Shown here: piece by piece, positions 14,081 to 42,895 of the stretch
Position numbering within the stretch: the stretch's first letter is position 1
Layout of the letters: every line of letters begins with the position of its first letter
Source: Bactericera cockerelli
Taxonomy: Eukaryota; Arthropoda; Insecta; Hemiptera; Triozidae
Length of the DNA stretch: 64,000 nucleotides
Assembly (NCBI GenBank): GCA_024516035.1
Contig: CM044959.1
Coordinates: 17,938,525-18,002,524, forward strand
Direction of reading: 5' to 3'
Notes under the pieces: generated by a model
The model's input: only the letters and a program-made list of their open reading frames with translations
What the model was told of the DNA's origin: nothing
The model's database searches: none
Program-made: the position numbers and the translations under genes

Positions 14081-14711
14081 TAATTTGATTGCTCTTTTTT
14101 TTTCATTTACAATTTCTTCATGGACGAGCTTGGTGTAGTGCTGAGTAAGAGACAACGAATTTATTTCAAAATGGGCAGAGATAACATGGTGACTGTTCTT
14201 ACCCATTGAAATAGGTCAACTTATACATTCAAACCTGGATACAAGAGAATAATTTTCAGGTCGAATTTGGTAAAATTTAGTCCTCTTTAAGGGAAAATGA
14301 TATTTAAAGAAGAGAAACCTGGATATAAAATAAAATAAACCGGTGTGACACCACACAACTTTCAAACCATCATCAAAAAATCCAAAGGAGCGGCCCTTGC
14401 TGCACTTCCGTCGCAGAGTGCGGCCGATTTCAACCAAAAGTACCGTGGTTCGACATACCGTTCTCGAGATACAGGGTCGGACTTACTCGCTAATATCCAC
14501 CTGTTTTGACCTATAACTCGTTTACCGTAAGTGAAAGAAGGATAAATATTGTTGGTATTAACTCCTTCTTGCGAGACTTTTCGAACAAGATATAACTCGT
14601 TTTGTTTTTTCGTTAAAAAAATTCTGGCTGTTTCTTCAGCTGGCTGACGAAACCGACCAGAAATTAACATCAAAAAGTTTTATTCTCCTGGTTTTTAGTT
14701 GGGACCCTTTA
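14081..14711. other. Sequence flanking the minisatellite, no gene recognised
   Basis: A 103-codon minus-strand frame at 14362-14673 lacks recognisable domains. The sequence includes CCGTTCTCGAGATACAGGG and GACCTATAACTCGTTTACCG phrases that look repeat-like. If DCAF13 transcripts run through the array, their 3' end would fall here or inside the array. Confidence 0.4.
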
Positions 14712-17700
14712 TCTTCCTCTCCAGAACACCTACTCCACCTCTTTAACAACACTCTTGTTCCTCTCCTTAACCCTACTCCACCTCTTTAACAACACTCTTG
14801 TTCCTCTCCTTATCCCTACTCCACCTCTTTAACAACACTCTTGTTCCTCTCCTTAACCCTACTCCACCACTTTAACAACACTCTTGTTCCTCTTCTTAAC
14901 CCTACTCCACCTCTTTAACAACACTCTTGTTCCTCTTCTTAACCCTACTCCACCTCTTTAACAACACTCTTGTTCCTCTCCTTAACCCTACTCCACCACT
15001 TTAACAACACTCTTGTTCCTCTCCTTAACCCTACTCCACCTCTTTAACAACACTCTTGTTCCTCTCCTTAACCCTACTCCACCTCTTTAACAACACTCTT
15101 GTTCCTCTCCTTAACCCTACTCCACCTCTTTAACAACACTCTTGTTCCTCTCCTTAACCCTACTCTACCTCTTTAACAACACTCTTGTTTTTATTTATTT
15201 AATACATGACAAGTATATGGTTCAAATATATATAACAATGACAGTTTACATAATTTCATAATATATTTTAAATTGAACTTATGCTAGTTTCTTTTGGCTG
15301 TCGTCATCTCACACTAAGGGCCACACCTATGAAGTATGGTCCTTGTGTCGTGGGATGCAGCCTTTTTCTAGTTTTTGTGTTAATTATAATTACTGTTCCT
15401 CTCCTTAACCCTACTCCACCTCTTTAACAACACTCTTGTTCCTCTTCTTAACCCTACTCCACCTCTTTAACAACACTCTTGTTCCTCTCCTTAACCCTAC
15501 TCCACCTCTTTAACAACACTCTTGTTCCTCTCCTTAACCCTACTCCACCTCTTTAACAACACTCTTGTTCCTCTCCTTAACCCTACTCCACCTCTTTAAC
15601 AACACTCTTGTTCCTCTCCTTAACCCTACTCCACCTCTTTAACAACACTCTTGTTCCTCTCCTTAACCCTACTCCACCTCTTTAACAACACTCTTGTTCC
15701 TCTCCTTAACCCTACTCCACCTCTTTAACAACACTCTTGTTCCTCTCCTTAACCCTACTCCACCTCTTTAACAACACTCTTGTTCCTCTCCTTAACCCTA
15801 CTCCACCTCTTTAACAACACTCTTGTTCCTCTCCTTAACCCTACTCCACCTCTTTAACAACACTCTTGTTCCTCTCCTTAACCCTACTCCACCTCTTTAA
15901 CAACACTCTTGTTCCTCTTCTTAACCCTACTCCACCTCTTTAACAACACTCTTGTTCCTCTCATTAACCCTACTCCACCTCTTTAACAACACCTCTTGTT
16001 CCTCTCATTAACCCTACTCCACCTCTTTAACAACACTCTTGTTCCTCTCCTTAACCCTACTCCACCACTTTAACAACACTCTTGTTCCTCTCCTTAACCC
16101 TACTCCACCTCTTTAACAACACTCTTTGTTCCTCTCCAGAACACCTACTCACCTCTTTAACAACACTCTTGTTCCTACTCCACCTCTTTAACAACATTCT
16201 TGTTCCTCTCCTTAACCCTACTCCACCACTTTAACAACACTCTTGTTCCTCTCCTTAACCCTACTCCACCACTTTAACAACACTCTTGTTCCTCTCCTTA
16301 ACCCTACTCCACCTCTTTAACAACACTCTTGTTCCTCTCCTTAACCCTACTCCACCTCTTTAACAACACTCTTGTTTCCTCTCCTCAAACCCTACTCCAC
16401 CTCTTTAACAACACTCTTGTTCCTCTCCTTAACCCTACTCCACCTCTTTAACAACATTCTTGTTCCTCTCCTTAACCCTACTCCACCACTTTAACAACAC
16501 TCTTGTTCCTCTTCTTAACCCTACTCCACCACTTTAACAACACTCTTGTTCCTCTCCTTAACCCTACTCCACCTCTTAACAACACTCTTATTCCTCTCCT
16601 TAACCCTACTCCACCTCTTTAAACACTCTCTAAACTGTCTTCCTTACCTACCACCCTTACCCTTTCCTCCACTACCCACTTACACACTGTCTTCCTAACC
16701 ACCACCTTTAACAAACCTTGTTCTTCCTTACCTACCCACCTCTACAACACCTGTCTTCCTAACCTCTCACCCTAACACATCTTTCCTCTCTACCTACCCA
16801 CCCTTAACAACATCTGTCCTCTTCTACCCACCCACCTAACAACCTTGTTCCTCTTACTACTCCACTTACAATCTTTCCTCTTAACCCTCCCTCTAACAAC
16901 TCTGTCCTCTTACCTCCACCCTTTAACAACACCTTGTTCTCTCCTTAACCCTCTCACCCTTACACATCTTCCTCCTAACCCTACTCACCTCTTACACACT
17001 CTTTTAACATACTACTTAAAACATCTCTAACTATATTTAAACATCTTTCTTCCTTACACCCTAACCTTTTTTTTTTTTTTAAATCTGTTCTTCTTAACCA
17101 ACTTACAATTTTTTCTCCTTACCCACTCTTAACACACTTGTCCTCTCCAACCCTACCCACCTCTTTAAAACACTTGTTCCTCTCCTTAACCCTACTCCAC
17201 CTCTTTAAAACCTTGTTCTCTTACCTACTTCCACACCTCTTAACAACACTCTTGTTCCTCTCCTTAACCCTACTCCACCTCTTTAACAACACTCTTGTTC
17301 CTCTCCTTAACCCTACTACACCTCTTACAACACTCTTGTTCCTCTCCTTAACCCTACTCCACCTCTTTAACAACACTCTTGTTCCTCCCTTAACCCTCTC
17401 CTCTCTTTAAAACACTCTTGTTCCCTCTCTTAACCCTACTCCACCTCTTTAACAACACCTTTTCCTCCTTAATCCTACTCCACCTCTTTAACAACACTCT
17501 TGTTCCTCTCTTAACCCACTCCACCTCTTTAACATCTTGTTCCTCTCTTAACCCTACTCCACCTCTTTAACAACACTCTTGTTCCTCTCCTTAACCCTAC
17601 CCACCTCTTTAACAACACTCTTGTTCCTCTCCTTAACCCTCTCCACCTCTTTAACAACACTCTTGTTCCTTCCTTCAACCACCTCTCACAACCTCTTTTA

Positions 17701-20700
17701 CTAAACCTTTCTCACCTTACTCACCTCTTTAACTCTTTCCTCTATAACCCACTCCACCTCTTTAACAACACTTTTTCTCCTTAACCCTACTCCACCTACT
17801 TTAACAACTCTTGTTCCTTCTTAACCCTACTCCACCCTTTAACAACACTATTTCCTTCCTTACCCTACTCCACCTCTAACACACTGTTCCTTTAACCTAC
17901 TCCCTTCTTTAACACACTCTTTCTCTCTAACCCTACTCCACCTCTTTAACAAACTCTTGTTCCCTCCTTAACCCTACTCCACCTCTTTAACAACACTCTT
18001 GTTCCTCTCCTTAACCCTACTCCACCTCTAACCACTCTTTTCCTCTCCTTAACCCTACTCCATCTTTAACAACACTTGTTCCTCTCTTAACCCTACTCCA
18101 CCTCTTTAACAAACTCTTGTTCCTCTCTTAACCCTACTCCACCTCTTTAACAAACCTTTTCTCTCTTAACCCTACTCCACCTCTTTAACAACCTTGTTCC
18201 TCTCTTAACCCTACTCCACTTTTAACAACACTCTTGTTCTCTCCTTAACCCTACTCCACCTCTTTAACAAACTCTTGTTCCTCTCTTAACCCACTCCACC
18301 TCTTTAACAACACTCTTGTTCCTCTCTAACCCTACTCCACTCTTTAACAACACTCTTGTTCCTCTCCTTAACCCTACTCCACCTCTTTAACAACACTCTT
18401 TCCTCTTTACCACTCTCCTCTTAACACACTCACCTTTACACTCTGTTCCCTTAACCTCTCCACCTCTTTAACAACACTCTTGTTCCTTCCTCCTTAACCA
18501 CACTCATCCTCTTACAACCCTTTCCTCTCCTTAACCCTACTCCATCCTCTTTAACACCTCTTTTACACTCTTTCTCCTACCATCCACCTCTTTAACACAC
18601 TCGTCTCTGTCCTCTCCACCTCTTACTACACCTTTTAACACACTTTTCCTCTCCTTAACCCTACTCCCTCTTAACACACCTTTTCCTCTCTTCCCTACAC
18701 CACCCTTTAACAAACACTCTTGTTCCTCTCTTAACCCTACTCCACCTCTTTAACAAACATCTTGTTCCTCTCTAACCCTACTCCACCTACACACTCTTTC
18801 TTAACACTACTCTTTTACCCTGTTCCTTAACCCTACTCCACCTCTTTAACAACTCTTGTTCCTCTCCTTAACCCTACTCCACCCTTTAACAACACTCTTT
18901 TCCTTAACCCTACTCCACCTCTTTAACAACACTCTTGTTCCTCTCATTAACACTCCACTCTTAAAACCTCTTTACACACTCTTGTTCCCTCTAAAAAATC
19001 TTTCCTCTACCTACTCACCAACCTCTGCTTCAACCAACTACTTTCTCCTGTTCCTCCCCTTAACCCTCCACCTCTTTAACAACACTCGTTCCTCTCCTTA
19101 ACCCTACACCACTCTTTAACACACTTTTCCCTCTTAACCCACTCCACCTCTTACAACACTCTTCCTCTCTTAACCCTACTCCACCTCTTTAACACACTCT
19201 TCCTTTAACCCTCTCCACCTCCTTAACAACCCTTCCTCTTTAACCACTCCCCTCTTTAAACCCTACTCCTCTTACTAACCCTTCCTCCCTCTTTAACACA
19301 CTCTTTTCAACTCTTACCCTAACCTCCACCCTTTAACAACACTCTTGTTCCTCCTTAACCCTACCCACCTCTTTAACAACACTCTTGTTCCTCTCCTTAA
19401 CCCTACTCCCCTCTTTACAACACTCTTGTTCCTCTCCTTAACCTACTCACTCTACACTCTTTACACATCTTTTCCTACTTCTAACCTACCCCTCTTTAAC
19501 AACACTTTGTTCCTCTCTAACCCTACTCCACCTCTTTAAAACACTCTGTTCCTCTCCTTACCTACCACTCTTTAACTACACCTTTTCTCTCTTAACCACT
19601 ACCTTTTACTAACCCTTTTCCTCTCTTAACAACTCACTCTTTACACTTGTTCCTCCCTTAACCCTACTCCACCTCTTTAACAACACTGTTCTCTCTTACC
19701 CTACTCACTCTTAACAACACTCTTGTCCCTCTTACCCTACTCACCCTTAACAACTCTTGTTCCTCTCTTAACCCTACTCCCTCTTTAACACACTCTTTCC
19801 CTCCAACCCTACTACCTCTTTAACAACACTCTTGTTCCTTCTTAATACTCACCTCTTTAACAACACTCTTTCTCTTCCTATCATTTACACCTTTTACTCT
19901 CTACCCTACACCTAACACCTTGTTTTCCTCTCATCTTTAACCTCTTCTACCTTCTTAATACACTTAACACTTGTTCCTCTCCTTAACCCTACTCCACCTC
20001 TTTAACAACCTCTTGTTCCTCTCTTAACCCTACTCCACCTCTTTAACAACACTCTTGTTCCTCTCCTTAACCCTACTCCACCTCTTTAACAACACTCTTG
20101 TTCCTCTCCTTAACCCTACTCCACCTCTTTAACAACACTCTTGTTCCTCTCTTAACCCTACTCCACCTCTTTAACAACACTCTTGTTCCTCTCCTTAACC
20201 CTACCCACCTCTTTAACAACACTCTTGTTCCTCTCCTTAACCCTACTCCACCTCTTTAACAACACTCTTGTTCCTCTCTTAACCCTACTCCACCTCTTTA
20301 ACAACACTCTTGTTCCTCTCCTTAACCTACTCCACCTCTTAACACTTTCCACTCCACTCTTTAACAACACTCTTGTTCCTCTCTTAACCCTACTCCACCC
20401 TTTAACAACACTCTTGTTCCTCTCATTAACCCTACTCCACCTCTTAACAACACTCTTGTTCCTCTCTTAACCCTACTCCACCTCTTTAACAACACTCTTG
20501 TTCCTCTCCTTAACCCTACTCCACCTCTTTAACAACACTCTGTTCCTCTCTAACCACTCCACCTCTTTAACAACACTTTGTTCCTCTTCTTAACCCTACT
20601 CCACCTCTTAACAACACTCTTGTCCTCTCTTACCCTACTCCACCTCTTAACAACACTCTTGTTCCTCTCCTACCCTACTCCACCTCTTAACACACTCTTT

Positions 20701-23700
20701 TCCTCTCCTTAACCCTACTCCACCTCTTTAACAACACTCTTGTTCCTCTCTTAACCCTACTCCACCCTTAACAACACTCTTGTTCCTCTCTTAACCCTAC
20801 CCACCTCTTTAACAACACTCTTGTTCCTCTCTTAACCCTACTCCACCTCTTTAACAACACTCTTGTTCTCTCCTTAACCCTACTCCACCTCTTTAACACA
20901 CTCTTGTTCTCTCCTTAACCCTACTCCACCTCTTTAACAAATTCTTGTTCCTCTCCTTAACCCTACTCCACCTTTAAAACACCTTGTTCCCTTCTTAACC
21001 CTACTCCACCTCTTAAAAACACTCTTGTTCCTCTCTTAACCTACTCCACCTCTTTAACAACACTCTTGTTCCTCTCCTTAACCCTACTCCACCTCTTTAA
21101 CACTCTTGTTCCTCTCCTTAACCCTACTCCACCTCTTTAACAACACTCTTGTTCCTCTCTTAACCCTACTCCACTCTTAACAACACTCTTTCCTCTCTTA
21201 ACCCTACTCCACCTCTTTAACAACACTCTTGTTCCTCTCTAACCCTACTCCACCTCTTTAACAACACTCTTGTTCCTCTCCTTACCCTACTCACCTCTTT
21301 AACAACACTCTTGTTCCTCTCCTTAACCCTACTCCACCTCTTTAACAACACTCTTGTTCCTCTCATTAACCCTACTCCACCTCTTTAACAACACTCTTGT
21401 TCCTCTCTTAACCCTACTCCACCTCTTTAACAACACTCTTGTTCCTCTACCTACTCACCTCTTTAACAACACTTTGTCCTCTCTTAACCCTACTCACCCT
21501 TACAACATCTGTCCCCTACCCACTCCCTTAACAATCTTGTCCCCCTTAACCCACTCCACTCTTTAACAACCTCTGTTCCTCTCTTACCCTACTCACTCTT
21601 TAAACACTCTGTTCTCTCTTAACCCTATCCACCTCTTTAACAACACCTTGTCCTTCTTAACCACTCCACCTCTTTAACACACTCTTGTCCCTCCTTAACC
21701 CTATCCACTTAAAACACTTTGTTCTCTCTTAACCCTACCCACCTTTAACACACTTTGTTCCCTCTTACCCTACTCCACCTCTTAACAACACCTTTTCTCT
21801 CCTAACCCTACTCCACCTCTTTACAACACTTGTTCCTCTCTACCCTACTCACCTCTTTAACAACACTCTGTTCCTCTTAACCTATCCACCTTTTAACAAC
21901 ACTCTGTTCTCTCTTACCTACTCCACCTCTTTAACAACTCTTGTTCCTCCTTAACCTACTCCACCTCTTAACAACACTCTTGTTCCTTCTTAACCCTATC
22001 CACCTCTTTAAAACACTTGTTCCTCTTCTTACCCTACTCACCTCTTTAACAACACTTTGTTCCTCTCTTAACCCTACTCCACCTCTTTAACAAACTCTTG
22101 TTCTCTCTTAACCTACTCCACCTCTTACAACACTCTTGTTCCTCTTAACCCTACTCCACCTCTTTAACAACACTTTGTTCCTCTCTTAACCCTACTCCAC
22201 CTCTTTAACACACTTTGTTCCTCTCTTAACCTACTCCACTCTTTAACAACACTCTGTTCCTCTCTTAACCTACTCCACCTCTTTAAACACTCTTGTTCCT
22301 CTCTTAACCCTCCACCTCTTTAACAACACTCTTGTTCCTCTCTTAACCTACTCCACCTCTTTAACAACACTTTTTCTCTTCTTAACCCTACTCCACCTTT
22401 TAACAACACTCTTTGTCCTCTCTTAACCTACTCCACTCTTTAACAACACTCTTGTTCCTCCTTACCTACTCCACCTCTTTAACAAACATCTTGTTCCTCT
22501 CTTAACCCTACTCCACCCTTTAACAACACTCTTGTTCCTCTCTTAACCCTACTCCACCTCTTTAACAACACTCTTGTTCCTCTCTTAACCCTACTCCACC
22601 TCTTTAACACACTTTGTTCCTCTCTTAACCCTACTCCACCTCTTAACAACACTTTGTTTCTTCTTAACCTACTCCACCTCTTTAACAACACTCTTGTTCC
22701 TCTCCTTAACCCTACTCCACCTCTTTAACAACACTCTGTTCTCTCTTAACCTACTCCACCTCTTTAACACACTCTTGTTCCTCTCTTAACCTACTCCACC
22801 TCTTAACACACTCTTGTTCCTCTCCTTAACCCTACTCCACCTCTTTAACAACACTCTTGTTCCCTTACCTACCACCTCTTTAACAACATCTTGTTCCTTC
22901 TTAACCCTACTCCACCTCTTTAACACACTCTTGTTCTCTCAACCCTACTCCACCTCTTTAACAACACTCTTGTTCCTCTCTTAACCCTACTCCACCTCTT
23001 TAACAACACTCTTGTTCCTCTCTTAACCCTACTCCACCTCTTTAACAACCTTTGTTCCTCTCCTTAACCCTACTCCACCTCTTTAACAACACTCTTGTTC
23101 TCCCACTTTAACCTACATCCCCTACCTCTTTCCAACCCCACTCTTAACAACTCTTGTTCCTCTCCTTACCCTACTCACCTCTTAACAACACTCTTGTTCC
23201 TCTCTTAACCTACTCCACCTCTTTAACAACACTCTTGTCCTCTCTTAACCCTACTCCACCTCTTTAACAACACTCTTGTTCCTCTCTTAACCTACTCCAC
23301 CTCTTAACAACACTCTTGTTTCCCTCTCCTCTTAACCCCCCTAACCTCCCACCTCTTTAACAACACTCTTGTTCCTCTCCTTAACCCTACTCCACTCTTT
23401 AACAACATTTGTTCCTCTCCTTAACCCTACTCCACCTCTTTAACAACATCTTGTTCCTCTCTTAACCCTACTCCACCTCTTTAACAACACTTTGTTCCTC
23501 TCTTAACCTACTCCACCTCTTTAACAACACTTTGTTCCTCTCTTTCTTAACCCTACTCCACCTCTTTAACAACACTCTTGTTCCTCTCATTAACCCTACT
23601 CCACCTCTTTAACAACACTCTTGTTCCTCTCATTAACCCTACTCCACCTCTTTAACAACACTCTTGTTCCTCTCTTAACCCTACTCCACCTCTTTAACAA

Positions 23701-26090
23701 CACTCTTGTTCCTCTCCTTAACCCTACTCCACCTCTTTAACAACACTCTTGTTCCTCTCTTAACCCTACTCATCTTTAACCACTCTTCCTCTTTAACTAC
23801 ACTCTAACACTTTGTTCCTCCTTAACCCTACTCCACCTCTTTAACAACACTTTGTTCCTTCTTACCTACTCACCTTTAAACACTCTTTTCCTCTCTTAAC
23901 CTATCCACCTTTTAACAACACTCTTGTTTCCTCTCTTAACCCTACTCCACCTCTTTAACAACACTCTTGTTCCTCTCCTTAACCCTACTCCACCTCTTTA
24001 ACAACACTCTTGTTCCTCTCCTTAACCCTACTCCACCTCTTTAACAACACTCTTGTTCCTCTCCTTAACCCTACTCCACCTCTTTAACAACACTCTTGTT
24101 CCTCTCCTTAACCCTACTCCACCTCTTTAACAACACTCTTGTTCCTCTCCTTAACCCTACTCCACCTCTTTAACAACACTCTTGTTCCTCTCCTTAACCC
24201 TACTCCACCCTTTAACAAACACTCTTGTTCCTCTCTTAACCCTACTCCACCTCTTTAACAACACTCTTGTTCCTCTCTTAACCCTACTCCACCTCTTTAA
24301 CAACACTCTTGTTCCTCTCTTAACCCTACTCCACCTCTTTAACAACACTCTTGTTCCTCTCTTAACCCTACTCCACCTCTTTAACAACACTCTTGTTCCT
24401 CTCCTTAACCCTACTCCACCTCTTTAACAACACTCTTGTTCCTTCCTTAACCCTACTCCACCTCTTTAACAACACTCTTGTTCCTCTCTTAACCCTACTC
24501 CACCTCTTTAACAACACTCTTGTTCCTCTCCTTAACCCTACTCCACCTCTTAACAACACTCTTGTTCCTCTCCTTAACCCTACTCCACCTCTTTAACAAC
24601 ACTCTTGTTCCTCTCCTTAACCCTACTCCACCTCTTTAACAACACTCTTGTTCCTCTCCTTAACCCTACTCCACCTCTTTAACAACACTCTTGTTCCTCT
24701 CCTTAACCCTACTCCACCTCTTTAACAACACTCTTGTTCCTCTCCTTAACCCTACTCCACCTCTTTAACAACACTCTTGTTCCTCTCCTTAACCCTACTC
24801 CACCTCTTTAACAACACTCTTGTTCCTCTCCTTAACCCTACTCCACCTCTTTAACAACACTCTTGTTCCTCTCCTTAACCCTACTCCACCTCTTTAACAA
24901 CACTCTTGTTCCTCTCTTAACCTACTCCACCTCTTTAACAACACTTTGTTCCTCTCCTTAACCCTACTCCACCTCTTTAACAAACTCTTGTTCCTCTCTT
25001 AACCTACTCCACCTCTTTAACAACACTCTTGTTCCTCTCTTAACCCTACTCCACCTCTTTAACAACACTCTTGTTCCTCTCTTAACCTACTACCTCTTAA
25101 CACACTCTTGTCTTTTATATCATTTACAAACTCTTGTTCCTCTCCTTAACCCTACTCCACCTCTTTAACAACACTCTTGTTCCTCTCTTAACCCTACTCC
25201 ACCCTTTAACAACACTCTTGTTCCTCTCCTTAACCCTACTCCACTCTTTAACAACACTCTTGTTCCTCTCCTTAACCCTACTCCACCTCTTTAACAACAC
25301 TCTTGTTCTCTCTACCCTACTCCACCTCTTTAACAACACTCTTGTTCCTCTCCTTAACCCTACTCCACCTCTTTAACAACACTCTTGTTCCTCTCCTTAA
25401 CCCTACTCCACCTCTTTAACAACACTCTTGTTCCTCTTCTTAACCCTACTCCACCTCTTTAACAACACTCTTGTTCCTCTCATTAACCCTACTCCACCTC
25501 TTTAACAACACTCTTGTTCCTCTCCTTAACCCTACTCCACCTCTTTAACAACACTCTTGTTCCTCTTCTTAACCCTACTCCACCTCTTTAACAACACTCT
25601 TGTTCCTCTTCTTAACCCTACTCCACCTCTTTAACAACACTCTTGTTCCTCTCATTAACCCTACTCCACCTCTTTAACAACACTCTTGTTCCTCTCATTA
25701 ACCCTACTCCACCTCTTTAACAACACTCTTGTTCCTCTTCTTAACCCTACTCCACCTCTTTAACAACACTCTTGTTCCTCTCCTTAACCCTACTCCACCT
25801 CTTTAACAACACTTTTGTTCCTCTTCTTAACCCTACTCCACCTCTTTAACAACACTCTTGTTCCTCTCATTAACCCTACTCCACCTCTTTAACAACACTC
25901 TTGTTCCTCTCCTTAACCCTACTCCACCTCTTTAACAACACTCTTGTTCCTCTTCTTAACCCTACTCCACCTCTTTAACAACACTCTTGTTCCTCTCCTT
26001 AACCCTACTCCACCTCTTTTACAACACTCTTGTTCCTCTTCTTAACCCTACTCCACCTCTTTAACAACACTCTTGTTCCTCTCCTTAACC
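14712..26090. repeat. 43-bp minisatellite array (about 260 units) seeded by the DCAF13 3' coding end
   Basis: The unit is 43 bp, starting CCTCTCCTTAACCCTACTCC on the plus strand. Clean units occupy 14712-15188, 15393-16620 and about 23930-26090; the middle (16620-23900) is full of small deletions. On the minus strand the unit reads GTTAAGGAGAGGAACAAGAG and ends with a GAGTAGG stretch, and the unit at 26048-26090 is in frame the last 13 codons plus stop of DCAF13 (VKERNKSVVKEVE*). Recurrent variants are CTTCTT or CATTAA for CTCCTTAA, and CCACTT for CCTCTT. The plus-strand unit has 18 C, 15 T, 9 A and only 1 G. Open frames within are by-products of the repeat. Confidence 0.97.
15189..15392. mobile_element. 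Insertion of about 204 bp inside the minisatellite
   Basis: Unique sequence interrupts the array, starting TTTATTTATTTAATACATGA and containing CCACACCTATGAAGTATGG and TGTGTCGTGGGATGCAGCCT. The same two blocks occur at 42779-42895, so this is a dispersed element that entered the array. The following unit resumes mid-period. Confidence 0.75.
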
Positions 26091-26304
26091 AGCGGCACCG
26101 TGCCGGGCTTGCTGTGCGTTCGCTTGTTGTTCTCCTTCCTCTTCTTCTTGTTGTGGATCACCCTGTGTTCCGCCTGGGCGTTGTAGATGTGCCGTGGCAC
26201 CTGGCGGTGGCGGGCGATGCGCCTGATCTGGGGATGATTCGCGTACTTCGCTTTGAGCGCCTCGGCGTAGTCTCGGGCGAGTCGCTGCCTGTTGTTGATG
26301 TAAC
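26048..26304 (-). CDS. DCAF13: DCAF13 exon 6 (C-terminal Sof1 domain and stop)
   Basis: Acceptor CTCTCCAG precedes 26304. The exon completes a Gly codon (G|GT) and reads YINNRQRLARDY...HSKPGTVPL, then VKERNKSVVKEVE and TAG at 26050-26048. The 13-residue tail after VPL has the same length as in human DCAF13 (basic, with paired Val), so I take it as the native C-terminus. Those last 43 bp are reiterated downstream. Confidence 0.93.
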
Positions 26305-29300
26305 CTGGAGAGACGATATAGAACAGGCTCGTTTATTTATTTATTTTATTTATTTATTTATTTAGAAACTTTTTATTAGTAGAACATATACAGACAAATA
26401 ATGGTAAAAATTAAATATAAAATTGACAATATTAATAATATAAACAAGAAAAAAATAAATAAAATATATACATATGTCCTAACTAAACTCGTTAGAAATT
26501 TTCGTGTTACGTATGAAGCTTGAGCACTAGCTGACCTTGCTTAAGGAGGAAAATGCACAGTTAAGAGATAAAGCCTGTTGAAAATGAATAAAAAATGCTT
26601 GAAACGATAATAGAATAAACAGTTGATATTGCCATTGATAAACTTTGGAAAGTATCAAGTTCCCAAATATTCTATTATATTTCTGAGGCGGAACGAGAAA
26701 AAGTCTCTGATATTAAATGGAAAAATGGTGAGTATGAAGATCATAAAGAAATAAGACTTTGTAAAGAAGGTGGACACTTGAGCTGACAGGATGAGACATA
26801 GAATAAAAGTTGACTCTACCTAGGTGGGAAGAGGCAACAAATGTAAATTAATTGTGTCAAACACAAATCTTCTGACTAACACAAATGTTAGTCTCTTCTG
26901 AGACTAGTCAGACTTCTGAGACTAACACAAATGTTTGTCTCAGAAGTTATTCCCCACATACAGGTACTAGAATCTGCTAAATGTTTGACATGACCACAAC
27001 TCGAACCCTAACCTCCGACTCGAGGTCCACTGCACTAAGCACCCACCCACTGGTTGGAATAACATTTTACTATCTCCTTCAGTTTGTCTCTCTTTTTTTA
27101 CCTAAAAGACGAATATAAGCAGTCAAAATTTTAAATGCACAATAGCCACAACATTTGAGCAAGGAAGATCTAATTTTCAAATTATGTGTTCTCGTAGACA
27201 CAAGTTTCACTGGTAACATGTCTGGTTGGGAGAAAAACACTCTTTCTTTAAGATGAGTGTTTCACAGATTTTTACTTCCGAAAAATTTCTAATATTAGAA
27301 ATCGGAAGTATTTTTTTTGAAGGGCGAAATCAATAGTCAAAATCGAGATCTTAAGTCATGACTTAAGCATAAGTTTTCCTAATCTTAGACAATACACAAT
27401 TTCTAGACTTAGCACCACAGAGGTATTACAAATTGTCTATAAATACCACCCTTATGATTCATGGATCAGCAGCTTCTGTAGATGCTTGAGGTCTGTGTTG
27501 TAGCCTGCCCATCCCGTAGTATGCCTCACCTCTGATGGGCAAGTAATAATAATAATAATATCGCCTTATTTATACTGCCCAATTAAGACTATTAAAGTCC
27601 CATTATTCCAGCAGTAAGCCCAAGACATATTATTATGTGGTAAAAATCCCAAATGGGAGGATAACTTGTCATGTCCCGGCTGGGTTTTGAACCCACGAGC
27701 TCTGGAACCTGTGGATTCACAGAGTGCCGCCTTTACCACTGTACACTAGTGACACAGTACTATTTTACCAACTCAATAAATGGAAACTTGTGAGAATAGT
27801 CCCTTACCCAGCTGCTCCGAGGCTTTTGACTTCCACACCCGCAGGTTCATCTCATCACTCGCGCTGATAACAAACTTGTTGTCCAGCGACCACAGTGTGT
27901 GGAGTGACGTGCTGCATCCGCTTCGTGTGGTAGATATCGCGAGAATGACCCTGGTGAGCGAGGTACAACCGGAGACTCTTGTCGTAGCCACCTGCTACAA
28001 ACTCCCTGCCTGAAGACACGATAATTTCAGATTAAACCTAACCAAATTTGGGCAGAAGTAAGTTTTTTTTTATACAACCAAAATTTGAATTAATGATACA
28101 ATGATACATAAATCTTAAATGGATTATAAAGAAAAAGCTCAAGGTCTCATAATGGTTGATCACATATGGACAAATGTGGTTCAGAACAAGCAAACTTTTC
28201 TCATGAGTTACCATCTAGGGACCATCACTCTTGGTTTTATTAAGTACTCAATAGTAAACTATAGTTGTTTCATTACTCTCTTTGAGAGGGAGTATTGGTA
28301 CCATACATATTACTCTCTTTCATTATCTGAATGAAAATCTCCTTACCTGTGGGAGCATAGTCCACACTGGTCACAGCACTTGTCATATCTTTGTGAACAA
28401 ACAGAGGAGAACCTAGCTTTCTTAAATCATATGAGTACAAGTTGAAGTCTTCATTTGCTGCAGTGAAGACAAAGGCTTCCATTGGATTCCAGCTAACCAT
28501 GTTGGATCGAAGAGACATGACCACTTTCCGGATAGGACCTGGGTGAGAAGAGGAAAGAAAATAAGCAATATACATTGAAGTATTCTGTAATATTAAAGAA
28601 ATCTGATCTGGTTATTCAAGTCCCAGTTTACACTTGTATATATATTACTAGCTAAATCCAATTTGTCACCGTTGAGGTTTTTGCCCATGGCTTTGATCTT
28701 TAAAAATTCTTTCTTAGTACAAACCTAAATAGCAAAAGGATTCTTTATGTCAATTTAATAGTGATTTGATCTAGCTCTTTCAGAGTTCTGTTGCTTATAA
28801 ATTAATGAATGTAGACAGATTTTAAATATTAAGAAATTTTCAAATGAGCTTTTTACACTGGGTAGATGGTGTAGTAGTAAATATACTGTAGGATACAAGT
28901 TTGAATCCTGAAGAATGCATAAAATTGAAATGTTGCAACAGTACACAAAGAACTGTTTCATGTGTTGGACTGAGGATTTCAATTATACTCTTTCTTCCTG
29001 TTTATTCTACCCTAGTTCAAATTTATTAAATAATAAATATAAATATATTAAAGAACACATATTTTCAATCTACAAGTCAAAAAGATATTGGAGTTTATAG
29101 CTACCTGTGGCTCTTATATCATACAGTATAATGCTTCTATCACTGGCACAAGCTGACATGATATGCTTGTCTACTGGGTTGAAAGCCACATGGTGCAAGC
29201 TGTCAACATTCCACTTGAAAGTTTGCACTGGTTCGTTTCGACCATGCTCCCACAGTTGACATGTGTCTCCACATGTGGCAAATACTTTGGATTTTCTCTG

Positions 29301-32300
29301 GTGGGAAATGCTTGAGATAACACTCCTAGATACAATGGTGGAGAGAGGAACAGTGAAGTCTGCTTGAGAAGGTGCAGCATCCCAGGTTTTGATTGTGCTA
29401 TCAATGCCAACAGTAATGAATTGAGATCCTGTTAAAAGAAAGAAAAAAATATCTTTATGGATGGGTACACAAAAAAGCATAGAGGAATGAAGCCCAGATT
29501 CATTATAACACTCCAACAGATAGTATGAATATTGGGTGTAAATGTTACCATGAGTTTTGATAATCCTGAGACAGTATGTAATCACCAGAACTAGGTAGGT
29601 ACCTACTTGGTGAGTTCTGATAAGATGGAAAAAATATTTGTACTTGATAATGTAGGTATTAAAATTACCATCTGGAATATAGCACACATCTCGAACATGA
29701 CCATCATGAGCTTGAACTGTTTCAATACATGATTGACTTGTTAGATCCCATATCTTAACTTCTCCATCATAAGCACCACTGATGATTGTAGCCAATTTTG
29801 TAGGGTGTTTGGCCAAGCAGGATATTCCATCTTTGTGACCATCCAAATTTGCTGCAAAGAAGATTATGTTAAATTTAAGTTTCAATTGCTGAAAAAGTTT
29901 GAGGGGTATATGCATCTAGGGTGTTTTAGATTATTATGTTACATGCTTAACATTCAACCATATGATCTTTCTTTGTATTTTACCACATCTTTACAGGGTA
30001 GCTCAGCATTAATTAAATTTATTTAATTAAATAAAATGTGGCAATCAGATCTGTAAACAATTTAGGAAAATAGCCTCCCCTAAGGACTTTACTTGTATAA
30101 ATAAAATCAGGAAAATTGCACCTCCACATTCACATGGGTGTATATTTAAGAATGACCCTAGACAAGACATTTTCTTGTCTCCTACCACAAACTTAGATTT
30201 AGGAGAGGAAATTGTATAGAAAACTATCTAAAATAACAAATGGTAAGTTTGGAGATACTTCAAACAATAAGTGCACTGATCAAATCAAATAAAATGGGGG
30301 ATGAAGTACCTATGTATATTTTAAAAATATTTTAGTTTTAGTTTGACAAATAAACTAGTAAATAAATAATTTGGGAGAGCTTTTCACAAAGTTGTAGGTT
30401 CAATTTATTTGGAAAGGAATGACCATCAAAGAAGTTGGTCGAAAACTAGAATTATAAAATTAACTCAGTTACTGGCTGCATTGCCATCAATCCATCCTAC
30501 TGTAACATCCCCTCTTCAGTAAAAAACATAATCCTTGTATCTAGATGGTAATTTGGTTTGCCTCCTCTGACGTGTTGGACGTTCATCTTCATTATCATTA
30601 GACATGATTCTTGGTGACTGGTTTGGGGGATTCTGAACATTTTCTTTTTCTTCAGTTGGACTAGATTCCACTACATCATCACCTCTTTCTTCATTTTCAC
30701 AAGATGATGTTTCAGGATGAGTTGAATCTGGTTTAATAATTTTTTCATTTCTCCTTAGCATAGCTCCTTCTGAAGTTCTCACGGTATATGATCTATTCCC
30801 ATCTTTGCTCTCAATTTTACCTTTAGACCAAGTTTCGCTTTCAGGCATTTTCTTATACCACACATCTTCATCAACCTCCAGGTCTTGTCTACTAACTGAA
30901 TGTCTATCATAATATATTTTTGCCTGTTTTTATTTTCTTTTATTTTGTCCTGTACACATTGTTGCTCAATGGGTTCAAGATCCTTGTTTATACTTGGTAT
31001 GTGACACCGCAACCATCTGTTCATTAACCTTTTAGCAGGACTGAAGTTTGTCTTATTCGGTGTATTTCTATGAAGCAACAACATTTGGTAAAAGTCTGTG
31101 TTGCTGTCAATGCTTTTCTTTATAAGTGTTTTTACTACTTTGACGGCGGATTCTGCTTTTCCATTAGACTGTGGGTAATGCGGACTTGACATGACATGAT
31201 TAAACTCCCAATCATTACTGAATTTCTGAAACTCCTGTGATGAAAAATTTGTTGCACCGTCTGTTATAACGGTTCGGGGAATACCATGTCGACTGAAGTT
31301 TCTCTTGCAGATGAGAATAACACAAGCTGAACTTAAATCTTTTAATTCGTCAATTTCGAAGTAATCAGAGTAATGATCGATCGTGACAAGGAATCTTCTT
31401 TTTTTTCCTTTAATGTCTACTTCGAAAACATCCATGCTAATTATTTCAAAAGGTTCTTTAGGTACTTCATAAGATTTCATTTCGATTCTCTTTTGATTTG
31501 CAGATAATTTTGCACAAGTTTCACAAGATTGCACAAGATCTTTAATTTCATTGTTCAAATTGGGCCAAAACACAACTTCCTTAGCCAGCTTTTGTGTAGC
31601 TTCTATTCCAAGATGTCCTAAGTGAATTTTTTTTTAAAAATTCTTTTCTGAGTTTGACAGGAATTAATATCTGATTTCCTTTTAGAATTATTCCATCTTC
31701 TATTGTTAAATCGGCTCTGTAATTCCAAAAGCACTTTAACTCATTGGACAGTTTGTGTTTTTCTTCTGGCCATCCTTTGATTATTTGTTGCTTCAGATGC
31801 TGAAGTTGACCATCAGTATTTGTTTCTTCTTTAATTCGTTGAATTGATTCATCTGATATTTTAACTATCTTGTTATCATAGTAATTTATACCAGTATTAA
31901 TTATTCTTAATGTACTGACGGTTTCACACAAATCTATTTCTTGTGAAATTTTATATATGTCATTTTGCTTTTCAATATTCTGCAAACTTTCAGGTGCACG
32001 AGATAATGTATCTGCCAGATACATACTTGTACCATTCTTATATTTTACAAGTAAATTATATCTTTGAAGGGTCAATATCATACTTTGTAAACGTTTTGGA
32101 ATTTTTAACAATGGTTTTTTAAATATTGATACTAATGGACTGTGGTCTGTCTCAATAACAACATTTGGCTGTCCACAAATATACTGGTCAAAGCGTTGAC
32201 ATGCAAACACAATCGCAAGCATTTCTTTTTCAATCTGTGCGTAATTCTTCTGTGTTGATGTTAACATTTTAGAAGCGTAAGCAACAGGTTGATCTTCTTG

Positions 32301-35300
32301 CAAAATGGCACATCCAAGGGCAAAAGAAGACGCATCAGCTTGAATAGTAATAGGTTTCTTTGGGTCAAAATATTTCAATTTTGTTGCATCTGCAATGATA
32401 TTTTTTATATTCAAAAATGCTTTTTCTTCATTATCAGTCCACTGAAATGTTTCTCCATTTCGCGTTATTTTTCTTAGAACTTCTGTTGTATCAGATAATT
32501 TGTTTATATATCTTGACAAATATGTTACCATTCCAAGAAATCTCATCACAGCTTCTTTATTTTCAGGTCTCGGCATATTGACAATTGATGATATCTTGCT
32601 AGGGTCTGGCTTGATTCCCTGAGAAGTCAATATATGACCATAAAATTTTATTTCTTTTTTACAGAGATGTGTTTTATCTGGATTGAGTTTAACATTTCGT
32701 TCTTTCAACCTCTTAAGAAGTGCTTCAAGATTTTTATCGTGATCACATTGAGCATCCTCTTGAGAATCACCATAGCCAACAATGAGAATGTCATCCGCTA
32801 ATACAAACACACCTCTCAAACCATGTACTACTTCTAACATTTTCTTCTGAAAAAATTTCCATGGCTGTTGATAAACCAAATGGAAGTCTAAGGTATCTGT
32901 ATTTTCCGAACGGTGTCCAAAAAGCTGTTAATTTACTGCTTCGTTCAGTTAATTTTACTTGCCAAAATCCTCTTGTCGCATCCATAGTTGAAAATAATTT
33001 TGCGTTATTTAACTCTGGAATTATTTCATCGATTGTAGGTAGTTGCTGTTTGGTATCCTTGATGGCACGATTCAGATGGGTAGGATCAATACATACTCTC
33101 AGTTTATTATTTCTCTTCACAATAGTCACATTACTTGTCCAGTCTGTGTATCCAGGTTCCTCAACGATTATATTATTTTTCAACATATTCTCAATTTCCA
33201 TCTTCAAGTCATCTTTTAAGGCAATTGGAACACGGCGTGGGCTTTGTTTTACTGGTGTTACCTCAGTTGAAAAATCAATATCAACTTCACCTGCTATTTC
33301 ACCTATGCCTTCAAATACATCTTTATACTTTTCAACCATTTTCTTTGTTGAATGAGGTATATTTTTTTCGAGTTGTTTCTCTTGTATGTTCTTGATTTCA
33401 CATATTTTCAAAACTTCACGGCAGTAGGTTATCAGGTTCAAAGTATCACATGCTTTGTATGAAAGTAAAGGTTTGTGATCATAGTCTACCACAATAAATT
33501 CCAAGTGAAAAATATGTTTGCCTTTTCTTATTTTCATAGTGTACTTTCCTTTGACACCCAGTGCTGTTCCGTTGACAGCTCGAAGTACAGCATTAGACAA
33601 ACATAACTGAATATTTTCTACTTCCAATATGTTACATAGTGTTTTTTCGCCAATGATGCTACATGTAGCTCCAGTGTCTAATTGAAATGATGTGGTTTTA
33701 ACCTTGCTATTAGGTAGGATTACATTTAAATTGATAAATACACCTTGATCTTTAAAGTGATTCACTTGTAATATTTTCTGGTCAACATCATCATTGTTTG
33801 GCACATTATGATGAACATACTTTATGTTATTTCTTCTTTGTCTACAAACAGTGGCAAAGTGTCCTTTTTTATCACATTGATAACAAATACTAGTTCTTGC
33901 AGGACATTCCTCAATTTTATTATGCCATTCTCCGCCACAGTATGCACATTTTTTCTGATTTTTCGTATGTCTGAATTTCTTGTTTTTAAATTCCACCTTG
34001 TTGATTTCATTTTGTTTATCTTCTAAAAATTCTAACTGTTTCTTTGTTTCTTCACTTGATTTGCAAATATTTATAGCTTCTGAAAGATCAATATTTTTCT
34101 TTAACCAAAGTTTTTCCCTCAGTTTGACATCTTTGATAGAACAAATAATTTTGTCTAAAAGAAGTTCGTCCTCCATGGTCTTATATTCACACAATTTACT
34201 TTGAGTCTTCAGTTTAAGAAAATAGTCCTGATATGATTCTTCCTCCGTCTGTTTCATGCTATTATAAATATAGCGCTCATATCTGATGTTCACTTCAGGG
34301 GTCAACTTTTTGATCAAAATACTCAAGATTTCTTCCGTTGTTTTGTCTTCTGGTTTTTCTATTAGTTTGTATATCTTCATACTTGCTTCTTCTCCTATTG
34401 CTGTTAACATAGTCGATACTCTCACAACATTTGTTTCTGTTTGGAGGCCACTAGCTGTTTCAAAGTTATTCCACATTCTTCTGAAATGTTCAATGTTAGA
34501 TCGGACATTGCCGTCGAGCTTCAATCCGCTTGGTAGAGGTAAACTGTTGACCTGCTTTACCAGGGTGACACTCTGCTTGACTTTTTCTTCTGATAATTGA
34601 GCTTTCAAAGTTTTGTTCTCTGCTTCATACTCTGCTAACTTCTTCTGCACAATCTGTTGAATTTGTTTTTCCAGTTCTTTGTCCATTATTTGATGTCTCA
34701 GATGTTATTTTATTAAACAAAGAAAAGAATTAAACAGGAACAAAATTTCAACACACCTGACACCATATTTTAGTTTGACAAATAAACTAGTAAATAAATA
34801 ATTTGGGAGAGCTTTTCACAAAGTTGTAGGTTCAATTTATTTGGAAAGGAATGACCATCAAAGAAGTTGGTCAAAAACTAGAATTATAAAATTAACTCAG
34901 TTACTGGCTGCATTGCCATCAATCCATCCTACTGTAACAAAAAACTAAAAAAAAAGAAGTGGTGTGACATTACTAGGAGGAGCTTATAGGAGTTTTTACT
35001 AATACTAGTAACTTCTCATTTTCAGTAAGCCCAAGACATACTATTGTGTGGTCAATATCCCACATGCAAGGATGACTTGTCATCTCCCGGCTGAGTTTTG
35101 AACACATCCTCTCAGAAATAACTCAGGTCCCAGAAATAGATAGTGACTTACCTACAAAGGGCTTGGCAAATACTCTTTCAAGTTTAGTGGCATTTAGAGC
35201 CCGTACGTACTCCCGTGGACCTTCAAAAGGATGTAAGCTAGGATCAATGTTCCTTGGCAATCTATGTAGTGAGTTCTTAGTTTCCCTTAGGTATTGGTCT

Positions 35301-35329
35301 GGATTTCTTGAGAGAACCTTGACCTTCAT
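26048..35329 (-). CDS. DCAF13: DCAF13 / Sof1-like WD40 protein (six exons)
   Basis: Six exons (35329-35152, 29851-29669, 29428-29105, 28538-28347, 28009-27808, 26304-26048) with GT/AG borders and matching phases encode about 444 residues, against 445 in human DCAF13. Landmarks: N-terminus MKVKVLSRNPDQY, NATKLERVFAKPF, WD repeats with WDLTSQSC and LYDIRATG, NPMEAFVFTAANEDFNLYSY, DIYHTKRMQHV, SDEMNLRVW, and the basic Sof1 tail IRRIARHR...HSKPGTVPL. The family acts in the nucleolar small-subunit processome (18S rRNA maturation) and as a CUL4-DDB1 substrate receptor (established for human and yeast homologues). Exon 5 carries a one-base insertion relative to the expected frame near 27890-27905. 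Intron 1 is over 5 kb because of a Gypsy insertion. The last 43 bases, including the stop, are the first unit of the minisatellite. Confidence 0.95.
26333..26365. repeat. (TTTA)n microsatellite
   Basis: TTTATTTATTTATTT-type tetranucleotide run next to a family H repeat in DCAF13 intron 5. Confidence 0.85.
26350..26500. mobile_element. Dispersed repeat, family H
   Basis: CTTTTTATTAGTAGAACATA, then ACAAATAATGGTAAAAATTA, then ATATACATATGTCCTAACTA, closely matching 63541-63660. It lacks the terminal TGGCAATCTCTTCC block. Confidence 0.65.
26501..27543. other. DCAF13 intron 5, no gene recognised
   Basis: AT-rich intron with a small direct repeat (AACACAAATGTTAGTCTC and variants near 26878-26945) and the TACTTCCG palindrome at 27272-27312. 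A degraded tRNA-like SINE end may lie near 26990-27050. Confidence 0.5.
27272..27312. repeat. TACTTCCG palindrome (element end)
   Basis: TACTTCCGAAAAATTTC then TAATATTAGAAATCGGAAGT: a hairpin-forming sequence identical in plan to those at 11569 and 55910. Here the rest of the element is missing or unrecognised. Confidence 0.6.
27544..27755 (-). mobile_element. tRNA-derived SINE, family B, with (AAT)n tail
   Basis: Minus-strand element: degenerate tRNA head near 27665-27755 (GGGTTCAAAACCCAGCCGGG), body GACATGACAAGTTATCCTCC and TATAAATAAGGCGATATT, then an ATT-repeat tail. Sister copies: 35023, 47349, 50198, 58608 and 59879. Confidence 0.8.
27808..28009 (-). CDS. DCAF13: DCAF13 exon 5, with one-base frameshift
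   Basis: Acceptor GTCTTCAG precedes 28009; donor GTAAGG follows 27808. The first half reads REFVAGGYDKSLRLY...DIYHTKRMQHV and the second half, in another frame, LWSLDNKFVISASDEMNLRV and SKASEQLG. Ten bases separate the two conserved blocks where nine are expected, so one extra base lies near 27890-27905. Exon lengths sum to 1336, one more than a multiple of three, which confirms it. Sequencing error or real mutation cannot be told apart here. Confidence 0.9.
28347..28538 (-). CDS. DCAF13: DCAF13 exon 4
   Basis: Acceptor TCACCCAG, donor GTAAGG. Encodes PIRKVVMSLRSNMVSWNPME, then AFVFTAANEDFNLYSYDLRK and VDYAPTG, a WD repeat with the conserved NPMEAF and TAANED signatures of the family. Split Gly codons at both ends match neighbouring exons. 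Confidence 0.95.
29105..29428 (-). CDS. DCAF13: DCAF13 exon 3
   Basis: Acceptor TCTTTTAACAG, donor GTAGCT. Encodes SQFITVGIDSTIKTWD, SKVFATCGDTCQLWEHGRNE, FNPVDKHIMSACASDRSI and ILYDIRATG, spanning the central WD repeats. The last blade ends in the DxR-type YDIR associated with DDB1 binding in this class (family knowledge). Confidence 0.95.
29669..29851 (-). CDS. DCAF13: DCAF13 exon 2
   Basis: Acceptor CTTTGCAG, donor GTAATT. Encodes NLDGHKDGISCLAKHPTKLA, then SGAYDGEVKIWDLTSQSC and QAHDGHVRDVCYIPDG, the first full WD repeat (GH...WD). It joins exon 1 through a split Ala codon. Confidence 0.95.
29852..30335. other. DCAF13 intron 1, downstream of the Gypsy element
   Basis: AT-rich intron sequence between exon 2 and the low-coordinate LTR. 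No feature recognised. Confidence 0.5.
30336..30507 (-). repeat. Gypsy 3' LTR
   Basis: 172 bp, starting TGTTACAGTAGGATGG on the minus strand and preceded there by the purine tract GAAGAGGGGA. It differs from the other LTR by one base (GGTCG against GGTCA on the plus strand). Confidence 0.95.
30516..30900 (-). CDS. Gypsy integrase C-terminal tail (fragment)
   Basis: About 115 codons in a frame shifted from the integrase frame: MWYKKMPESETW, an RSYTVRTSEGAMLRRN segment, an acidic linker and a basic end (TRQRRQTKLPSRYKDY). The R-R-N and basic patterns are typical of the variable Gypsy integrase C-terminus. The frame change near 30890-30910 separates it from the catalytic core. Confidence 0.75.
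30779..31573 (-). CDS. Gypsy integrase core (fragment)
   Basis: Encodes a zinc-binding remnant (CETC), then the catalytic core with Asp in ISMDVF, Asp in ITDGATNF and Glu in NGKAESAVK, the D-D-35-E triad of retroviral-type integrases. The reading frame is separated from the RNase H frame by a one-base shift in a nine-T run (31627-31635, plus strand). The last about 35 residues are out of the native frame. Confidence 0.85.
   Translation of the reverse strand: MFWPNLNNEIKDLVQSCETCAKLSANQKRIEMKSYEVPKEPFEIISMDVFEVDIKGKKRRFLVTIDHYSDYFEIDELKDLSSACVILICKRNFSRHGIPRTVITDGATNFSSQEFQKFSNDWEFNHVMSSPHYPQSNGKAESAVKVVKTLIKKSIDSNTDFYQMLLLHRNTPNKTNFSPAKRLMNRWLRCHIPSINKDLEPIEQQCVQDKIKENKNRQKYIMIDIQLVDKTWRLMKMCGIRKCLKAKLGLKVKLRAKMGIDHIP
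31581..32879 (-). CDS. Gypsy reverse transcriptase C-half and RNase H (fragment)
   Basis: Contains VLADDILIVG (the RT catalytic ADD in place of the more usual IDD), FYGHILTSQGIKPDPSKI, the connection segment with FLGMVTYLSRYI, and RNase H residues in QADASSFALG, EKEMLAIVFA and ETDHSPL. The upstream RT half is in another frame, because of a six-base homopolymer at 32850-32855. Confidence 0.88.
   Translation of the reverse strand: MVYQQPWKFFQKKMLEVVHGLRGVFVLADDILIVGYGDSQEDAQCDHDKNLEALLKRLKERNVKLNPDKTHLCKKEIKFYGHILTSQGIKPDPSKISSIVNMPRPENKEAVMRFLGMVTYLSRYINKLSDTTEVLRKITRNGETFQWTDNEEKAFLNIKNIIADATKLKYFDPKKPITIQADASSFALGCAILQEDQPVAYASKMLTSTQKNYAQIEKEMLAIVFACQRFDQYICGQPNVVIETDHSPLVSIFKKPLLKIPKRLQSMILTLQRYNLLVKYKNGTSMYLADTLSRAPESLQNIEKQNDIYKISQEIDLCETVSTLRIINTGINYYDNKIVKISDESIQRIKEETNTDGQLQHLKQQIIKGWPEEKHKLSNELKCFWNYRADLTIEDGIILKGNQILIPVKLRKEFLKKNSLRTSWNRSYTKAG
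32791..34686 (-). CDS. Gypsy gag, protease and RT N-half (fragment)
   Basis: About 631 codons. Residues 1 to about 240: capsid-like gag with an N-terminal coiled-coil-like stretch. Then a CxxC...C segment and a CCHC knuckle (CYQCDKKGHFATVC, near 33835-33880). Then the protease active site LDTGATCSII (near 33660), and RT fingers/palm with STMDATRGFWQVKL and YRYLRLPFGL. Gag and pol are one frame here. The last about 30 residues follow a frameshift and are not native. Confidence 0.9.
   Translation of the reverse strand: MDKELEKQIQQIVQKKLAEYEAENKTLKAQLSEEKVKQSVTLVKQVNSLPLPSGLKLDGNVRSNIEHFRRMWNNFETASGLQTETNVVRVSTMLTAIGEEASMKIYKLIEKPEDKTTEEILSILIKKLTPEVNIRYERYIYNSMKQTEEESYQDYFLKLKTQSKLCEYKTMEDELLLDKIICSIKDVKLREKLWLKKNIDLSEAINICKSSEETKKQLEFLEDKQNEINKVEFKNKKFRHTKNQKKCAYCGGEWHNKIEECPARTSICYQCDKKGHFATVCRQRRNNIKYVHHNVPNNDDVDQKILQVNHFKDQGVFINLNVILPNSKVKTTSFQLDTGATCSIIGEKTLCNILEVENIQLCLSNAVLRAVNGTALGVKGKYTMKIRKGKHIFHLEFIVVDYDHKPLLSYKACDTLNLITYCREVLKICEIKNIQEKQLEKNIPHSTKKMVEKYKDVFEGIGEIAGEVDIDFSTEVTPVKQSPRRVPIALKDDLKMEIENMLKNNIIVEEPGYTDWTSNVTIVKRNNKLRVCIDPTHLNRAIKDTKQQLPTIDEIIPELNNAKLFSTMDATRGFWQVKLTERSSKLTAFWTPFGKYRYLRLPFGLSTAMEIFSEENVRSSTWFERCVCISG
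34768..34939 (-). repeat. Gypsy 5' LTR
   Basis: 172-bp LTR at the high-coordinate side; the primer-binding site lies just inside at about 34756-34765. One mismatch with its partner implies recent insertion. Confidence 0.95.
35023..35106 (-). mobile_element. SINE family B fragment
   Basis: Part of the family B body: CAGTAAGCCCAAGACATACT, then GATGACTTGTCATCTCCCGG. Head and (AAT)n tail are missing. It lies within 50 bp of the DCAF13 exon 1 donor. Confidence 0.65.
35152..35329 (-). CDS. DCAF13: DCAF13 exon 1 (start codon)
   Basis: ATG at 35329 starts MKVKVLSRNPDQYLRETKNS, closely matching the DCAF13 N-terminus including the length to HPFEGPREYVRALNATKLER. Donor GTAAGT follows 35152. The start is chosen by homology and because no upstream in-frame extension looks coding. 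Confidence 0.95.
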
Positions 35330-42778: not shown

Positions 42779-42895
42779 TTTATTTATTTAATACATGACA
42801 AGATTCCACAATAAGGACCACACCTATGAAGTATGGTACTTGTGTCGTGGGATGCAGCCTTGTTTTGGTTTCGGTGTTAATTTTTATTACTATAT
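42779..42895. mobile_element. Dispersed element shared with the minisatellite insertion
   Basis: TTTATTTATTTAATACATGA, CCACACCTATGAAGTATGG and TGTGTCGTGGGATGCAGCCT match 15189-15392, with a shorter spacer between blocks. Class unknown. Confidence 0.7.

Follow-up and report, generated by a model that had tools for sequence, protein, structure and literature searches.

An 11-kb minisatellite behind the stop codon of DCAF13 in Bactericera cockerelli, very probably grown in place from the end of the coding sequence

The window analysed in this study is a stretch of 64,000 nucleotides from the hemipteran Bactericera cockerelli (assembly GCA_024516035.1, contig CM044959.1, positions 17,938,525 to 18,002,524 of the forward strand); positions below are those of the window unless a contig is named. 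On its minus strand lies the gene DCAF13, whose coding sequence ends in 43 nt that recur in head-to-tail copies on the same strand from 26090 down to 14730. Here we describe the gene, the array and the DNA on its far side, and weigh how the array may have come about.

Results

The DCAF13 gene and the array behind it

Among the best 120 of 2901 homologues, the two closest relatives of the window protein are those of the psyllids Diaphorina citri (84% identity) and Cacopsylla melanoneura (82%). The best solved-structure matches to the WD40 part are human DCAF13 and then Sof1, and the Sof1 domain PF04158 is found with an E-value of 4e-27 at residues 10-89 of the 94-residue open reading frame (ORF) of the last exon. 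The protein has the WD40 repeats and the C-terminal Sof1 domain of the DCAF13/Sof1 family. On the minus strand the last exon translates as ...KRTHSKPGTVPLVKERNKSVVKEVE, followed by the stop. The coding exons and the array are as follows.

35147..35329, minus strand: first coding exon of DCAF13, start MKVKVLSRNP (limits from the protein match)
29664..29858, minus strand: DCAF13 exon (limits from the protein match)
29094..29444, minus strand: DCAF13 exon (limits from the protein match)
28347..28545, minus strand: DCAF13 exon (approximate; low end set by eye)
27808..28009, minus strand: DCAF13 exon with a 1-nt frame shift near 27901 (limits set by eye)
26048..26304, minus strand: coding part of the last DCAF13 exon, with the Sof1 domain (exon start set by eye from the splice site)
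26048..26090, minus strand: unit 1 of the array, comprising the last base of a CTG codon, the final 13 codons and the TAG of DCAF13; the sole translated unit (reading frame and homologue alignment)
14730..26047, minus strand: untranslated tandem copies of the 43-bp unit, with an insert (Tandem Repeats Finder, alignment and core search)

The array measures 11,361 bp, including one insert of about 204 bp, and holds about 260-275 units. A wrap-around alignment to the unit begins at 26090 and traverses 275 units outside the insert. Tandem Repeats Finder gave a period of 43 with 249 copies at 14714-25111, and its overlapping rows extend the array to 26091. Perfect 43-mers number 75 when common variants are allowed, 52 of them being exactly the consensus. 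The 35-nt core of the unit, used as the search pattern with up to 3 mismatches, matched 112 times in the window and not once in 100 dinucleotide shuffles. The preliminary description had counted about 260 repeats and had placed the array at 14712..26090; its upper edge holds, but the lower edge overshoots by 18 nt, the true one being 14730. The repetition itself also stands, but not as an uninterrupted run of identical units, since about 204 bp are non-unit sequence and only 77 of the 281 alignment rows are ungapped. With head-to-tail units in the range of about 10-100 bp, a kilobase-scale length and one locus, the array belongs to the single-locus minisatellites, among which its origin and size are unusual.

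The first unit encodes the native C-terminus

Unit 1 (26090-26048, minus strand) begins with the last base of the CTG codon and continues with the codons GTT AAG GAG AGG AAC AAG AGT GTT GTT AAA GAG GTG GAG TAG, that is, VKERNKSVVKEVE and the stop, which directly continue the upstream reading ...HSKPGTVPL. The reading frame confirms the earlier assignment of 26048-26090 to the final 13 in-frame codons of DCAF13, the stop codon and one further base. Homologous proteins end at the same place. Beyond the last column of the window protein no residue is found in 117 of the 120 aligned homologues, and the last 13 columns are ungapped in 116. The mean identity over the last 13 residues is 6.4 of 13 across these homologues, compared with 1.96 for shuffled order and 5.24 for the largest of 2000 shuffles. 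The tail of Diaphorina citri, TKERQRAVVKEME, is identical to that of the window at 8 of 13 positions. In the human chain 7mq8_LU, residues 414-443 of 445 align to residues 4-33 of the 35-residue query, which leaves both within two residues of their ends. As judged from these alignments, the coding end of DCAF13 is native, as had been claimed before.

The unit is confined to this locus in the assembly

The genome searched is a 565-Mb assembly of 1032 contigs. The unit core (≤3 mismatches) has 112 matches genome-wide, all on one strand, and the window alone holds 112; all the genome-wide matches listed lie in the array next to DCAF13. The reversed-pattern control gave 0 matches genome-wide, BLAST of the unit against the assembly found no match outside the array (3 candidates scored), and viral contigs contained no exact match. 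These counts do not describe a satellite family, although other loci may be collapsed or absent in the assembly, and the term satellite, used previously, is too strong for a minisatellite at one locus. Nor does the array show signs of a transposon origin, as the unit has no match outside it at ≤3 mismatches or by BLAST. Because the unit is matched nowhere else in the 565 Mb, the array was not imported from another repeat family present in the assembly; the absence of the unit elsewhere at ≤3 mismatches argues, as the preliminary description had proposed, that the array grew here.

The edges of the array and the DNA beyond

The first column of the unit opens the array, inside the coding sequence, and column 43 closes it at 14730, so that both edges are in the same phase; in the outer neighbours the match to the unit continues for 0 nt at one edge and 1 nt at the other. 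Three features follow the last unit.

14674..14729, minus strand: 56 nt past the last unit, of which at least the first 51 are single copy; putatively what remains of the original DCAF13 3' untranslated region (3'UTR) (genome matches)
14679..14684, minus strand: AATAAA, the first poly(A)-type hexamer past the array, 45 nt after the last TAG (motif scan)
14610..14673, minus strand: start of a dispersed repeat adjoining the remnant (39 other places start at query position 52-58)

If the array is collapsed to a single copy, the coding end is followed by GTGTTCTGGAGAGGAAG.... For the junction behind the array the genome has one match at ≤3 mismatches, and with 40 of 57 candidates scored no other genome match covers the first 51 nt past the array. 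The 56 nt with their AATAAA would look like an old short 3'UTR cut by a later insertion, with a putative role for the hexamer in polyadenylation. A GU-rich stretch past the 14684 hexamer was dropped as support for a poly(A) site, for it belongs to the dispersed repeat.

The unit and the remnant share the 9-bp word GGAGAGGAA, at a distance of 44 bp. Shared words of this length occur in 15 of 2000 random 56-mers and in 1.8% of mononucleotide shuffles, and GGAGAGGAA may have been the direct repeat at which slippage began. The first 30 nt behind the array align to the unit with a local score of 11 (p 0.024 against shuffles, p 0.005 against random stretches of the window), a likeness that fades when 60 nt are taken (p 0.092 and 0.032, respectively). 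This unit-like DNA may be either the seed or a decayed unit.

Origin of the array

We consider it very likely that the array was made by amplification of the DCAF13 coding end in situ. An initial tandem duplication of 43 bp would have spanned the coding end together with its stop codon. By unequal exchange or replication slippage the copies would then have multiplied on the spot to about 260-275, pushing the coding end and the old short 3'UTR apart. In favour of this are the native C-terminus, the lack of unit matches elsewhere in the assembly, the common phase of the two edges, the single-copy DNA with AATAAA past the last unit and the patchy distribution of unit variants. The first copy would restore an identical protein end whatever the number of copies behind it. 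Because each unit ends in a stop codon, growth of the array would be neutral for the protein and escape selection on it.

Several points weigh against this account. The state before the expansion is inferred rather than seen, from one assembly. Matching phase at the two edges would by itself arise by chance in an estimated 2-3 of 43 cases, and GGAGAGGAA could be a decayed last unit. AATAAA lies within 52 nt of about 8% of window positions by chance, and a dispersed repeat, found in 39 other places (40 of 57 candidates scored), takes over from about the 57th nt past the array, which leaves a poly(A) role of the remnant putative. Annotated psyllid ends differ, the tail of the Cacopsylla melanoneura protein P0002 extending 67 residues past VPH. 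Finally, no DCAF13 copy was found besides the one with the 1-nt frame shift, which makes a damaged gene conceivable.

The same Cacopsylla melanoneura protein departs from the family pattern after VPHVAERTKA, either because its gene model is wrong or because this gene end has truly changed in a second psyllid as well.

The insert and the fate of the transcript

The one interruption of the array is the following.

15190..15393, minus strand: mobile-element-like insert of about 204 bp, with ATTAAA at 15203 and AATAAA at 15199 and 15195 (non-unit sequence in the array)

The insert, at about 15393-15190, resembles 42779-42891 of the window, and because of this match it looks like a mobile element. 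Its AATAAA made it a candidate for the original DCAF13 3'UTR, which was rejected on account of the same match.

In a motif scan from 26090, neither AATAAA nor ATTAAA turned up between the stop codon and 15204, where about 23 AATAAA per 11.1 kb would be expected from the rest of the window. The first hexamers past the stop codon are those in the insert (15203-15195), followed by that at 14684. Because the interval up to 15204 is free of AATAAA and ATTAAA, the array is a plausible candidate for the 3'UTR of DCAF13, and the transcript would run through it to the hexamers of the insert or to the one at 14684. Alternatively, the array may stay outside the DCAF13 messenger RNA, either through early cleavage or through splicing as a 3'UTR intron. 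A 3'UTR of 11 kb would be costly and may invite nonsense-mediated decay, which speaks for such an exclusion; early cleavage, however, would need another signal, given the lack of both hexamers from the stop codon to 15204. We regard exclusion of the array from the message as a real contender, though less likely than not.

The GC skew of the sense strand is 0.89 over 11 kb, with one C per unit, compared with a highest same-strand skew of 0.36 elsewhere in the window (500-bp windows). On transcription, a sense strand so poor in C may be prone to R-loops, and these could drive additional expansion. A G-quadruplex scan of the array found no motif with G runs of three or more, the unit having two-tier motifs alone. 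For three ideal units in a row the strand folds at -12.0, compared with -5.4 +/- 1.8 in 100 mononucleotide shuffles, a comparison in which repetition itself favours pairing. Every frame of the ideal array meets stops within 129 nt and unit 1 is closed by its own stop, and the array is therefore not a translated coding variable number tandem repeat (VNTR).

Unit variation and the assembled length

Units differ along the array, most clearly in the stretch next to the gene.

25317..26090, minus strand: clean proximal stretch, the first 18 units, each exactly 43 nt (alignment rows)

Here 11 of the 18 units have A or T at columns 7-8, compared with 20 of the 263 other rows, and T at column 33 is confined to the distal part of the array. 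The pairwise difference is 2.5% among the 18 proximal units, 1.5% among 23 distal units (chosen as ungapped) and 2.1% between the two sets. These patchy variants fit, as expected, local exchange between neighbours. Unit 1 is identical in sequence to the consensus of the array.

Relative to the unit, the array without its insert shows 809 deleted, 139 inserted and 228 substituted bases. Indels reach 16% per 500 bp in the middle of the array and are mostly deletions; the stretches beside unique DNA are clean. In genuine arrays the middle is expected to be the most uniform part, and for this reason the mid-array indels are read mainly as assembly noise, a poor consensus far from unique anchors. 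With a middle rich in deletions and clean ends, the exact length of the array is uncertain. Homopolymer errors were considered as the source of the deletions and rejected, as per-base rates are equal in runs and single bases (19.2 and 19.5). Of 831 deletions, 131 fall on the GG of columns 7-8, and 19 units differ from the consensus solely by one deleted G there, so it is possible that a true 42-bp unit type exists.

The deletion-filled middle beside clean ends, the reverse of what unequal exchange would produce, may also be taken to mean that the real array is much shorter and was inflated or mis-stitched by the assembler. This is unlikely. The 18 proximal units are free of gaps, and the 23 ungapped distal ones have other variants and lie around a unique insert; together they imply at least about 2 kb of genuine array. 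Deletions are not richer in homopolymers, and the 19 units that lack a single G suggest that part of the length variation is perhaps real.

Integrity of the gene

The 1-nt shift of the DCAF13 frame near 27901 was located by eye against the Diaphorina citri protein P0001. It would fit a decaying copy of DCAF13, with the array lying behind a pseudogene, a possibility that we hold to be very slight. DCAF13/Sof1 is a conserved ribosome-assembly gene, required for maturation of the 18S ribosomal RNA, and a search for it in the assembly (95 of 99 candidates scored) found a single locus, with six exon-level matches that all lie within C5:17964575-17973853 and no second copy. Five of the six matches are free of internal stops, and the sixth (67% identity, 5 stops) spans an exon and runs into the intron behind it. 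Small indels are moreover common in the array of this same assembly, and the frame shift is probably an assembly error, perhaps of the same kind as the mid-array deletions.

The remaining alternative, that a minisatellite from elsewhere moved beside DCAF13 and its unit replaced the native last codons, would explain why unit 1 equals the consensus, but it is strongly disfavoured and barely credible because the unit is matched only here at ≤3 mismatches in 565 Mb, the tail encoded by unit 1 and the aligned DCAF13 tails are homologous at the same position, and both edges of the array share one phase.

ORFs at 30519-34704 (minus strand), inside the first intron of DCAF13 and on its strand, resemble by eye a long terminal repeat (LTR) retrotransposon of the Gypsy type, and near-identical 35-residue readings at 30338-30445 and 34770-34877 suggest the repeated flanks of such an element. 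Just upstream of the last-exon acceptor lies a simple TTTA/TAAA repeat (26332-26364), which resembles in type the tail that the insert carries.

Other features of the window

The ORF at 56025-56402 (plus strand) has as its best match ubiquitin carboxyl-terminal hydrolase 47 (PDB 8itn, E-value 1.1e-14; PF00443) and is part of another gene, on the strand opposite to DCAF13. A tandem repeat at 12470-12768 (36-bp unit, 8.3 copies, 83% matches) has open frames on both strands; its ORFs have a below-cutoff match alone, to a histidine-rich family, which is probably compositional. Another at 38160-38521 has a 68-bp unit, 5.3 copies and 86% matches.

Discussion

Several known arrays resemble the one described here in part. 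The VNTRs in the 3'UTR of human SLC6A3/DAT1 and at the 3' end of apoB likewise have a unit of tens of bases at a single locus at the 3' end of a gene; unlike in these, the unit behind DCAF13 is the coding end including the stop codon, and the array reaches about 11 kb. In the coding VNTRs of CEL and MUC1 the unit also comes from coding sequence. Their copies are in frame and translated, whereas the stop in unit 1 ends translation of DCAF13 before the array. As in the D4Z4/DUX4 macrosatellite, a gene end within the array may make use of a poly(A) signal past it, but D4Z4 has kilobase-scale units with whole genes, in contrast to a 43-bp coding tail. In section 4.1 of a 2025 review (PMC12692304), the sources named for satellites are transposons, ribosomal DNA spacers, micro- and minisatellites and older satellites; the coding ends of protein genes are not named in that section. 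The satellites treated there arise, as here, by tandem amplification of pre-existing sequence, and the DCAF13 array differs in being a single locus rather than a genome-wide family. A search of open-licence literature by titles and abstracts with a few terms found no report of a coding end with its stop codon as the seed of such an array.

One may speculate further, although we think it quite doubtful, that duplications ending exactly on a stop codon form a self-buffering class that grows without limit at the ends of genes, the protein staying the same throughout, and that this array serves both as a reservoir of altered C-terminal codons and as an R-loop-prone 11-kb 3'UTR controlling the expression of DCAF13. 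If the array were such a reservoir, conversion of its common variants into unit 1 would replace K by N, E by K and E by V in the protein.

The origin of most minisatellites is lost. In the DCAF13 array the seed is still coding, the boundaries are exact, and the DNA past the array shows what appears to be the old gene end, so that the birth step of such arrays and the tolerance towards them can be tested in related psyllids. The locus also prompts one to ask how a gene that is essential can tolerate 11 kb of repeats starting right after its stop codon.

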